From Dehalococcoidia bacterium (lineage in GTDB: Bacteria > Chloroflexota > Dehalococcoidia > Dehalococcoidales > UBA1222), in the NCBI GenBank assembly GCA_009776515.1, contig WRNP01000005.1, forward strand, positions 1 through 33,068: DNA of 33,068 nt. The letters are read 5' to 3'. Under the pieces are notes generated by a model. That model made no database searches. It saw only the letters and a list, made by a program, of their open reading frames with translations, and had not been told where the DNA came from. This document shows positions 22,132-27,141 of this stretch, in pieces. Numbering within the stretch: the first letter of the stretch is position 1; every line of letters begins with the position of its first letter. Position numbers and translations under genes: made by a program.

Positions 22132-22318
22132 CATGAATAACTAGGATCAATGTTGGGCTCGGATGGCGAAGGCGGGATGCAGAGAATCGCAAAATAGATA
22201 CTTTAGTCATCCGTATCGCCTTTATCGGCTCAAATCTCCGCTCCCATTGCTCCCAAATATCAAGGGGGTAGTAACGAATATTACAATATAACCCCTTTTG
22301 TGTGAGGAGACTGAGCAA

Positions 22319-25300
22319 ATGGGCATCATAAAAAATAAACCCAACCTAAAACAGCTCTTGTTGGTACTGCTGATCGCCATATTGGTCGTAGCAATAGTGC
22401 TGGCTGGCACACCGCTACTCACCCAACCTAAAGTAAGCGCTGCCCCGGGTGATACCTATGCGGTACCTATGGTCTCAGCCGGAGGCAGTCATACGGTTGC
22501 CCTGCATAATGACGGCACCGTCTGGGCTTGGGGTTCTAACGAATACGGACAGTTGGGTAACAACTCCACCGCAGGCAGCCTGACCCCCGCACGGGTAGTT
22601 GGCCCGGGAGGGGTTGGTTTTCTCGCCGATATTATTGCCGTCTCAGCTGGAGATGCTCACACTGTGGCTCTCAAAGATGATGGCACCGTCTGGGCCTGGG
22701 GGGCTAATAATCACGGCCAATTGGGTAATAACTCCACCGCCGACAGTCTGACACCAGTGCAGGTAGTAGACCCCGACGACATCACCGGTTTTCTTGCCGA
22801 CATTGCTGCCATATCTGCCGGAGGCCTGTACACCGTAGCCCTTAAAGCTGATGGTACGGTATGGACCTGGGGAGCTAACAGCGATGGCCAATTGGGTAAC
22901 GACTCCTCTGCGGATAGCTGGATACCTGATCAGGTACGAGAGCCATGGGGAGGCGTCAATTACCTTACCGAAATCATCGCCATCTCGGCCGGATACGCTC
23001 ACACAATAGTCCTCAAAGAAGACGGTACTGTATGGGCCTGGGGACAGAATTATTATGGTCAGTTGGGTGATGGAACTACTACCAGCAGCAGTACTCCGGT
23101 ACAGGTAATCAACCCCATGGATGTCACCGGTTTCCTCACCGACATCGTTGCCGTATCGGCTGGATATTATCACACGGTAGCCCTAAAAGCTGACGGCACC
23201 GTATGGGCTTGGGGATATAATTTCTACGGTCAACTGGGCGATAGTACTGATGCTCATCGCTATTCACCAATACAGGTACCCGGTCTGCTCGAAGTGGCGG
23301 CCATCTCGGCCGGATATGCTCACACCGTAGCCCTTAAAGCTGATGGTACGGTATGGGCCTGGGGATTGAATAGCGCTGGCCAACTGGGTAACGATTCCTC
23401 TACTGATAGTTGGATACCTGATCAGGTACGAGAGCCTTGGGGAGGCGTCAATTACCTTACCGATATTATCGCCATCTCGGCCGGAGGTTATCATGCAATT
23501 GCCTTGAAGAGTGATGGTGCCGGCGAAGGCACCCTTTGGTCATGGGGAGATAATGATTTTGGTCAGCTTGGCGACGGTACTGCCGTAAACCGCCTTGCAC
23601 CTGTACAGGTTGTTTATTATAACTTTATCGCTGTCTCCGCCGGATATTCTCATACAATGGCCCTGAAATATGATGGCACGGTATGGGCTTGGGGATGGAA
23701 CAATTTAGGACAATTGGGCAATGGTTCTACTGCAAACAGTTTCAAGCCTGTACAGGTGCGCGGTCTGGGAGGCGCTGGTTTTCTGACTGATATAGTCACT
23801 GTCGCGGCTGGAAACTATTACACGGTGGCTCTGAAAGAAGACGGCACGGTATGGGCCTGGGGATATAACAGCCAAGGCCAACTGGGCGACGGCACTAATG
23901 GCGCAGGCGCAAACCGTAGCGTGCCAGTACGGGTTATCGACCCAACCGATGACACCGGTTTTTTGACCGGTATCATGGCTGTTGCGGCTGGTGTTAATAA
24001 CACAGTAGCCCTAAAGGAAGCTGGCACGGTATGGACATGGGGAGGAGGCCTGTTGGGAAATGGCACCACTGCGAGCAGTAGCGTGCCAGTACGGGTTATC
24101 GACCCAACCGATGACACCGGTTTTCTGACCGGTATCACTGCTGTTGCGACTGGGCAGGATCACACAGTAGCCCTAAAAGAAGATGGCACGGTATGGACAT
24201 GGGGATACAACTTCTATGGGCAGATTGGCGATGGCACTAATGGTGTAGGCACAAACCGCAACGTGCCCGTACAGGTTATCGACCCAACCGATGGCACCGG
24301 TTTTCTGACTGATATAGTCGCCGTCGCGGCTGGAAGCTATTACACGGTGGCTCTAAAAGAAGATGGCACGGTGTGTGCTTGGGGTTATAACAACTACGAC
24401 CAGTTGGGCGATGGTAACGGCGGCCTTGGCGTATATAGTAGCGTGCCAGTACAAGTTATCGATCCAACCGATGTCACCGGTTTTCTGAGCGGCATCATTG
24501 CTGTTGCGGCTGGACAGGATCACACAGTAGCCCTAAAAGAAGATGGCACAGTATGGGCTTGGGGACTGAACATTAACGGCCAACTGGGTGATGACACTGA
24601 GACAAATCGACTTGCGCCAGTTCAGGTACGCGGACCGGGCGGCGGTGGCTTTTTGACTGACATAGTGGCTATTGCGGCTGGAGTTAATCACACAATGGCC
24701 CTGAAGATTGATGGCACGGTATGGGGTTGGGGGCATAACCAATTTGGGCAGGCGACGGGTGATACAGGATATACCCACGTCCTTACGCCCACGCGGGTTT
24801 TCTCCCCTGCTCCCTTCACAGTATTGTTGGACATCACTCCTCCCATCGGTATCATCAGCTTCGTACTTAACGATTATGGCTCTTTCATCACCGCAAACAC
24901 TTTTGGGGTATTTCGCAAGAACACCACTTTTATCACCATAACAGCCCAAGACGATCTCTCTGGTATCAAATCCATTGCCTATCTTCTATCCGATAATGTC
25001 TACCTAGATGCAGCGGCTATGAGTAGCGTCATCTGGACATCTTATCCCAAAGACGGGTTCAGCATATCGGCCAACTACAGGGGTTTCGCCTATGCCCGCA
25101 TTGCCGACAAGGCAGATAACATAACCATTATCCGCTCTGATGGTTTGGTGGTATACACAGATAGCACTCCTGCTATCACATCGCTCAGTTATGTCTATGC
25201 TTCTGCTTCTGATCAAGATCTCGCGGTGACAATGAGCGGCAATACTATAGACAAAATCATGAACGGCGCCGTCACCCTCGTATTTGGCGTCGACTACACG

Positions 25301-26368
25301 GTAATGGGCGATGTCATTACCTTCAAAGCCGCTTATCTTGACAGTTTAAGCATTGACGATTACACCATTACCGTCTATTACAACCCCATGGGTGTAACTT
25401 ATGTAGATGCCCCAGGCAACGAAGCTCCCGATACCACCACCGTTAACCTGATGATATACCAGCCGTACGATGTTATCTATACCTATAGCGGCACTATTCC
25501 CCTGGGTGCCCCGGCTGTGCCGTCGCTAGAGAGCTTTGCTCCCAACACAATGGTTAGCGTAGCACCACCACCGACCCTATCTGGTTATACTTTCAGCGGG
25601 TGGAGTACTGCCTCAGCGGGGGTCAGTATCAGTGGTGGTAGTTTCTCCATGCCAACAAGTGATGTGGTTTTCACTGGCACGTGGATGCCAAACACTCCAA
25701 TCACCACGGCCACATCGACGACATCGACGCCCATCACTCCTCCCAATACCGTCATTCCCACCACTCCCGTTTCTTCTATTCCCACCACGGTGATCGTGAG
25801 TCCCACCCCTTCCGGTACTACTACCACACCGACTCCGTCAACCACGCCTACCACTGCCCCAACGAGTTCAACCACCTCGGCTATCTCAGCCACCCCACTG
25901 ATACAAGATCCCACTGAGACCGGCACTCTCCCAACAACGACCGCTATGGGTGGTAGCACCTCACCCACCACCACGACCGTAGCTCCCTCTACCACCCCGA
26001 ATACGAAGACCGGTGATGGCAACGATTACTGGGCCCTCCTTAACCTTATCCTGGCCATCTTGGGGGCTCTCCTGGCCGTAGGGGCTATTATCCGAGCTTT
26101 CTTCTGGCACGGTAAAAACGAAGACCGCTACGGTATAGAAGAAAAGAAGACCCGACTCATCTGGATCGCCATATCTGTCGTCCTGGCCATAATAGGTTTT
26201 GTGGTCTTCTTCTTAACCGAAGATATGAGTCTCCCAATGCGCTTCGTGGACATCTGGACCATCGTCAATGCCGTCATCCTCATAATCGGTATCATCAGTG
26301 TGATGCTGGTCTTCAAGCATGAGGAAAATGACGCAATGAAACCAGCCACTAACGGAAGAGGGGAATAA
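22319..26368 (+). CDS. Large secreted, membrane-anchored RCC1-repeat surface protein
   Basis: ATG at 22319 after GAGGAG (the track ORF starts at a TTG at 22298). Signal-peptide-like N-terminus (LKQLLLVLLIAILVVAIVLAG), 14 copies of [VI][SA]AG..HT.ALK.DGTVWAWG.N..GQLG, downstream Ig/X2/InlB-like modules, Thr/Pro/Ser linker and 3-TM C-terminus. Confidence 0.93.
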   Translation: MGIIKNKPNLKQLLLVLLIAILVVAIVLAGTPLLTQPKVSAAPGDTYAVPMVSAGGSHTVALHNDGTVWAWGSNEYGQLGNNSTAGSLTPARVVGPGGVGFLADIIAVSAGDAHTVALKDDGTVWAWGANNHGQLGNNSTADSLTPVQVVDPDDITGFLADIAAISAGGLYTVALKADGTVWTWGANSDGQLGNDSSADSWIPDQVREPWGGVNYLTEIIAISAGYAHTIVLKEDGTVWAWGQNYYGQLGDGTTTSSSTPVQVINPMDVTGFLTDIVAVSAGYYHTVALKADGTVWAWGYNFYGQLGDSTDAHRYSPIQVPGLLEVAAISAGYAHTVALKADGTVWAWGLNSAGQLGNDSSTDSWIPDQVREPWGGVNYLTDIIAISAGGYHAIALKSDGAGEGTLWSWGDNDFGQLGDGTAVNRLAPVQVVYYNFIAVSAGYSHTMALKYDGTVWAWGWNNLGQLGNGSTANSFKPVQVRGLGGAGFLTDIVTVAAGNYYTVALKEDGTVWAWGYNSQGQLGDGTNGAGANRSVPVRVIDPTDDTGFLTGIMAVAAGVNNTVALKEAGTVWTWGGGLLGNGTTASSSVPVRVIDPTDDTGFLTGITAVATGQDHTVALKEDGTVWTWGYNFYGQIGDGTNGVGTNRNVPVQVIDPTDGTGFLTDIVAVAAGSYYTVALKEDGTVCAWGYNNYDQLGDGNGGLGVYSSVPVQVIDPTDVTGFLSGIIAVAAGQDHTVALKEDGTVWAWGLNINGQLGDDTETNRLAPVQVRGPGGGGFLTDIVAIAAGVNHTMALKIDGTVWGWGHNQFGQATGDTGYTHVLTPTRVFSPAPFTVLLDITPPIGIISFVLNDYGSFITANTFGVFRKNTTFITITAQDDLSGIKSIAYLLSDNVYLDAAAMSSVIWTSYPKDGFSISANYRGFAYARIADKADNITIIRSDGLVVYTDSTPAITSLSYVYASASDQDLAVTMSGNTIDKIMNGAVTLVFGVDYTVMGDVITFKAAYLDSLSIDDYTITVYYNPMGVTYVDAPGNEAPDTTTVNLMIYQPYDVIYTYSGTIPLGAPAVPSLESFAPNTMVSVAPPPTLSGYTFSGWSTASAGVSISGGSFSMPTSDVVFTGTWMPNTPITTATSTTSTPITPPNTVIPTTPVSSIPTTVIVSPTPSGTTTTPTPSTTPTTAPTSSTTSAISATPLIQDPTETGTLPTTTAMGGSTSPTTTTVAPSTTPNTKTGDGNDYWALLNLILAILGALLAVGAIIRAFFWHGKNEDRYGIEEKKTRLIWIAISVVLAIIGFVVFFLTEDMSLPMRFVDIWTIVNAVILIIGIISVMLVFKHEENDAMKPATNGRGE
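22472..24834 (+). repeat. 14 tandem RCC1-type coding repeats (about 50-60 codons each)
   Basis: Counted by eye from the translation: each unit begins [IV][SA][AT]G and carries the (D)GTVWAWG...GQLG core. Fourteen units would fit two seven-bladed propellers. Confidence 0.88.
26026..26365 (+). repeat. Second copy of the C-terminal 3-TM coding module (paralogous to about 152-470)
   Basis: Nucleotide stretches such as TGGGCCCTCCTTAACCT, GAAGAAAAGAAGACCCG, GTCCTGGCCATAATAGGTTT and GAGTCTCCCAAT are shared in the same order and frame. Confidence 0.85.
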
Positions 26369-26550: not shown

Positions 26551-27141
26551 ATGTTGAAGAGCGTGTTGTCACTTCTCTTGGCGCAGATATTGCTCATTGC
26601 GCCCTTCGGGTGCTCCATGAGCGTCACGCCTAGCGCCACAATTGAGGTCAAAGATTTCTATATTATTTATGAAAGAGATCCATCTGACAGTATCGCGTTC
26701 ATTGAATGGGACCAGTTTGGCAATGCCATCTCTATAACTAGTAAACCCGAGAATCAATTCAAGGTTTTGCTGGATACAAAGAATAATATTCTAGGTAGAG
26801 TATTTGATTTGCAAGGTCAACAATACGCCTACATCAGTATCCATATGCCCCCTGAAGATTTGCAGGCTATCTACGACGCTGTTATCAAGTATGATATCAA
26901 ATCACTCAGTAGCCCCGATGTGCTGAGCCCCGATGAGTGGGTATTATATGGGAATGGGTATTATCGAATCACGTTTTTCCTTGAGGGCGAGGTATATTCA
27001 GTTACTTATCGTGAGCGCGTAATTTACTCAATGCAGCCAGCATATCAGAATTTGCGTTCATTCCATACTGTGTTGAATTATTACTACAAAAATACTGATG
27101 AATATAAGAGTTTTCCGCCGGTGATGACCACGGCAGCGTAA
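26551..27141 (+). CDS. Hypothetical secreted protein, possibly a lipoprotein
   Basis: 196 aa; hydrophobic N-terminus MLKSVLSLLLAQILLIAPFGCS with a Cys at a weakly lipobox-like position; no recognised domain. Confidence 0.65.
   Translation: MLKSVLSLLLAQILLIAPFGCSMSVTPSATIEVKDFYIIYERDPSDSIAFIEWDQFGNAISITSKPENQFKVLLDTKNNILGRVFDLQGQQYAYISIHMPPEDLQAIYDAVIKYDIKSLSSPDVLSPDEWVLYGNGYYRITFFLEGEVYSVTYRERVIYSMQPAYQNLRSFHTVLNYYYKNTDEYKSFPPVMTTAA

Follow-up and report, generated by a model that had tools for sequence, protein, structure and literature searches.

The window is a 33,068-nt stretch of a Dehalococcoidia bacterium (contig C5), drawn from an assembly of 1.34 Mb that is 91.5% complete. On its forward strand, an open reading frame at positions 22319–26368 (ATG at 22319, stop codon at 26366–26368) encodes a protein of 1349 aa, with a Shine-Dalgarno-like GAGGAG at 22304–22309, 9 nt before the ATG. 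The neighbors include trp genes, prfA, prmC, an acyl-CoA synthetase gene and ftsH, among others; an operon or multi-gene system was rejected, since these are housekeeping genes and the open reading frame has no partner among them. Just downstream, positions 26551–27141 hold a lipoprotein-like gene of 196 aa that belongs to no Pfam family and is present in four copies in this genome and in some copies in the relatives G233 and G247.

Profile searches, inspection and hydropathy revealed a modular layout. A Lys-rich start followed by a hydrophobic segment reads by hydropathy as an export signal, and the predicted signal peptide covers residues 1–42 (22319–22444; core, residues 13–31) up to a putative cleavage site. 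Fourteen RCC1 repeats, counted by inspection and each 48–60 aa long, occupy residues 49–829. The Pfam RCC1 profile matched 13 stretches with 561.5 bits against a cutoff of 21.7 (E = 7.6e-173) and WD40_RLD matched the array at E = 9.8e-226, values that exclude chance. Repeats 1–7 (residues 49–435; 22463–23623) and 8–14 (residues 436–829; 23624–24805) correspond to predicted propellers A and B. The non-repeat modules (residues 830–1123) comprise an Ig-like/OmpL47-like stretch with putative boundaries (about residues 840–950; 24836–25168) and a weak OmpL47-type match (NF047446; residues 868–898; E = 0.0016), a CBM_X2 domain (PF03442; residues 957–1022; 25187–25384; E = 2.2e-12), and an InlB/Listeria-Bacteroides B-repeat (PF09479/PF18998; residues 1050–1118; 25466–25672; E = 1.3e-5); searched against the PDB, this module region of 300 aa returned no match. 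A 113-aa linker (residues 1124–1236; 25688–26026) composed of 37% Thr, 18% Pro and 12% Ser leads into a C-terminal tail with three further hydrophobic peaks (residues 1240–1258, 1280–1298 and 1314–1332). The original prediction, made from the DNA letters, had described the same succession of signal-peptide-like N-terminus, 14 RCC1 repeats, about 300 aa of modules, linker and three hydrophobic segments, and our searches confirmed it.

We compared each half of the array with solved seven-bladed chains. The first half matched UVR8 at E = 4.7e-63 and the second at E = 8.8e-46, and both also matched RCC1 (1a12). Leaving out frames cut by contig ends, relatives carry 14, 14, 7, 7 and 7 repeats, plus one with 12, and viral RCC1 proteins mostly carry 7 or 21, with some at 18 and 8. 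The clustering of counts at 7, 14 and 21 thus supports two seven-bladed propellers, and the WRAP domain offers a precedent of a 14-blade array folding in this way (PMC9218822). AlphaFold modeling of residues 43–1125 reached a pLDDT of 36 and a pTM of 0.32 on a shallow alignment of 14 rows, made of viral and L084 RCC1 proteins, in which the repeats were probably mis-registered. Homology and repeat counting therefore support the 7+7 double propeller that had been proposed from the repeat number, and the predicted structure does not add to it.

The blades also bear on how the array arose. Blades 3 and 6 share 84% identity at the protein level and 85% at the DNA level, and identity at an offset of seven blades (59%) is not above that at offsets 1–3, so duplication of a whole propeller (blade i resembling blade i+7) was rejected. 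Because of this close pair and the lack of any special likeness at offset 7, the array seems to change through single-blade copying, as is known for propellers in general (PMC9218822).

Across the 14 repeats, entropy reached 2.5–3.0 bits at five positions per blade and lay below 1 at most scaffold positions. Two of the variable sites separate AG from HT and three lie around the N of WG-x-N-xx-GQ; Tyr, Trp, Phe, His or Asn often fill them. In an alignment with UVR8, the AG-xx-HT pair falls on the Trp/Arg of the GWRHT motif, which lies at the UVR8 dimer face. Such a pattern would resemble a binding ring; RCC1 repeats in general may share it, and it is not specific evidence for one. Binding is a broad term here, since RCC1 propellers also include inhibitors such as BLIP-II and exchange factors, and neither CBM_X2 nor the InlB repeats are proof that the protein binds carbohydrate or a host.

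The C-terminal tail is an already described, curated NCBIfam domain found as the C-terminal part of surface proteins. The FILTED model (NF052597, "FILTED domain-containing surface protein") matched residues 1238–1338 of 1349 (anchor at 26030–26332), scoring 93.9 bits where the cutoff is 40, and none of the papers in the collection searched names FILTED. From a 70-sequence alignment, AlphaFold2 predicted three long helices (H16–43, H53–81 and H87–116; mean pLDDT 69), in agreement with the three C-terminal transmembrane segments initially proposed. Lys and Arg are more frequent in loop 1 than in loop 2 in 56 of 64 FILTED tails; the net charge of loop 1 is slightly negative across the tails, so the positive-inside argument draws on Lys/Arg counts only. 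Helix 1 would accordingly run inwards under the positive-inside rule, leaving the N-terminal head outside. The motifs WALLNLI, F-LTEDM and D-W-T recur among tails. Conservation extends across all three helices, a span of about 100 aa, and is strong in the second loop (TEDM..M..D.WT). Against the PDB, the FILTED profile found no credible match (best E = 0.59), and a Pfam "Tetraspanin" match to the tail (E = 6.7e-5, under cutoff) was set aside as a generic membrane-helix match. An LPXTG-type motif before a single C-terminal transmembrane segment is absent from the protein, which has three predicted helices instead.

The genome encodes seven FILTED tails. Besides the tail described above, the window holds that of a second FILTED surface protein, which the contig start truncates so that its C-terminal end remains at positions 1–480, with a Thr/Pro linker and a tail at 157–459 on the forward strand (80% identical over 104 aa), beside an FtsH-like gene at 837–2771. 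Another FILTED protein (L021:3763–5547, contig C80) has a GGG-rich beta-helix head similar to chlamydial polymorphic membrane protein repeats. A small protein encoded on contig C61 (L022:6094–6837) combines a lone RCC1 repeat with a Val/Thr linker and one transmembrane helix; it may be a remnant, or may supply one blade to an assembly of several.

We then considered what such a tail could anchor to. In this 91.5% complete genome, neither sortase (PF04203; positive controls in 3 genomes) nor penicillin-binding transpeptidase (PF00905; search control worked) had a match, which makes anchoring to peptidoglycan very unlikely. The cell is apparently wall-less, and the anchor presumably works in a membrane without a cell wall. 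A linker spanning the envelope, as originally predicted, keeps its spanning role and loses the wall it was to cross: with apparently no peptidoglycan, it would instead pass through an S-layer or glycan coat.

Among Dehalococcoidia, FILTED is confined to a narrow group. Across the class it exceeded the cutoff in one of 148 genomes, the window's own, and within the order all genomes above it belong to three genera (g1, g117 and g119) of the window's family. RCC1 and FILTED are both expanded in these three genera and both absent from the sister genera g2 and g118; RCC1 without strong FILTED occurs in nine further genomes elsewhere in the order. Other RCC1 chassis in relatives combine Ig-like and FIVAR domains with one helix, or take a lipoprotein-like form, or join the array to a subtilase (L140) or to Rhs/YD-like repeats (L148). 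On viral contigs from IMG/VR (L151–L161, one of the RCC1-bearing contigs being 372 kb long), neighboring genes carry 7 RCC1 repeats each, or a single frame carries 18–21; these are possibly virion surface or tail proteins. A further paper retrieved for RCC1 (PMC10804542) was discarded, as "RCC1" there is a strain name only. The nearest FILTED tails outside this genome belong to termite-gut Dehalococcoidia MAGs, a kind of MAG already described from higher termites (PMC7024585). From these relatives, we infer that the organism comes from a termite gut.

Beyond the class, genome contigs were scanned with a single conserved peptide pattern, which limits the sample; the 66 loci recovered belong to Dehalococcoidia, Coriobacteriia, many Clostridia and archaea. 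Many of the 66 are insect-gut MAGs, judged by isolate names and termite MAG studies, and tails were found in termite-gut Firmicutes too. The archaea are Ca. Bathycorpusculum, Nitrososphaerota and Ca. Methanoplasma; their FILTED-type tails (L063–L067, L071, L073, L074, L076, L080, L083, L099 and L109, mostly insect-gut) end proteins of up to 1774 aa, with two genes close together in L064 and L067. All four archaeal assemblies checked contain ribosomal L15e, and genes for Vhu-like hydrogenase and ADP-forming-type CoA ligase occur close to archaeal tails. Given L15e and these neighbors, contamination is an unlikely source. In a weak tail tree of 129 columns, Bathyarchaeota and Nitrososphaerota formed one group (support 87) next to the Dehalococcoidia tails, with Methanoplasma placed elsewhere; two entries of FILTED into archaea would be the simplest count, not proof. 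The heads and stalks on these tails vary: InlB-type repeats occur in 36 of 55 other FILTED proteins, along with MBG, MucBP, fn3 and Cna_B domains, and RCC1 repeats in only one (L044/L084, of the same bacterial family).

Taken together, we favor a single-chain surface-display protein, in which a membrane-anchored FILTED tail carries a stalk and a two-propeller binding head, and we put its probability at about two in three. The NF052597 match, the three predicted helices and the RCC1 homology support the original proposal of a surface-displayed, membrane-anchored binding protein; we infer the topology, the closure of both propellers, the role of the stalk and the binding function. The signal peptide would direct export, and the FILTED tail would hold the protein in the cytoplasmic membrane with its N-terminal part outside. 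The Thr/Pro/Ser linker and the Ig-like, CBM_X2 and InlB-type modules would form a stalk through the outer coat, at whose far end the two seven-bladed RCC1 propellers would act as binding head. On a near-invariant scaffold, this head would vary at set positions in the loops of each blade. In a wall-less gut-type cell, the head would most likely adhere to or capture a ligand in the gut, such as a particle, a glycan, a neighbor or a host protein.

A different reading takes FILTED as a sorting or processing signal akin to LPXTG, PEP-CTERM or MYXO-CTERM, with an intramembrane protease cutting near helix 1 and the head released or attached elsewhere. The C-terminal position, the short conserved motifs and the many heads borne by one tail would suit such a signal, as would the Pro-Leu motif, TPLA or VPL for example, that many Firmicutes tails have 10–20 residues before the first helix. 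That motif is absent from the protein studied here, however, and the genome has no sortase match. Known single-helix sorting tails are shorter than a FILTED tail with its three conserved helices, and cleavage near helix 1 would not need the strongly conserved second loop. We therefore regard a sorting signal as unlikely.

The protein might also build the cell coat as an S-layer-associated component, in place of binding a ligand. A cell without penicillin-binding transpeptidase presumably has a coat of protein or glycan, and the FILTED paralogs are numerous and carry stalk repeats. Their heads, however, range from RCC1 and beta-helix to InlB and Cna_B, unlike those of a lattice protein, and most relatives in the order do without FILTED, which makes a structural role distinctly improbable. 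Least credible is a surface-bound enzyme inhibitor or decoy, shielding the cell against an enzyme of the gut or of a competitor. The analogy would be BLIP-II, a secreted bacterial binder of the same RCC1/BLIP-II propeller group (PMC9218822), and no target can be named here. BLIP-II, moreover, is small and soluble.

Of the leads from this locus, the spread of FILTED among gut bacteria and archaea is the most interesting. We tentatively propose, as a possibility that falls well short of probable, that FILTED is a surface anchor independent of sortase and wall, which among gut microbes has crossed bacterial phyla and also entered archaea, and that streamlined Dehalococcoidia built variable heads on it. 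One of these would be a double RCC1 propeller, with the variable residues at its fixed positions forming a recognition surface. A small-genome, apparently wall-less Chloroflexota lineage could then expose large binding proteins at its surface while lacking both sortase and peptidoglycan, and an anchor common to termite-gut bacteria and archaea would mean that surface-protein parts are shared across domains within one habitat.

Set against known systems, the protein shares with FILTED proteins (NF052597) the three-helix C-terminal tail, signal peptide and low-complexity linker; like most members examined, it also has an InlB-type repeat close to the tail, and it departs from them in its RCC1 head. 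With LPXTG/sortase InlB-type adhesins it has in common a head, stalk repeats, a Thr/Pro linker and a C-terminal anchor, but its genome has no sortase or transpeptidase match, LPXTG is missing, and three helices stand in place of one. Its repeat sequence and fold family are those of RCC1/BLIP-II and UVR8 propellers, yet nothing here indicates an exchange-factor, photoreceptor or beta-lactamase-inhibitor function. The idea that the gene represents an undescribed system did not hold: the tail is NF052597, the neighbors are housekeeping genes, and RCC1-propeller surface proteins are known from other symbionts. Seven-bladed RCC1-type propellers, with surface presentation proposed, have been predicted in Hepatoplasmataceae HCTKY_2170, together with Ig-like domains (PMC10928387), and in the Saccharibacteria minor pilin PilX2 (PMC12206443). 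Unlike either, the protein described here has two predicted propellers in tandem and a FILTED anchor. It is thus a known propeller head on a curated anchor class, unusual in its host lineage and in the combination.
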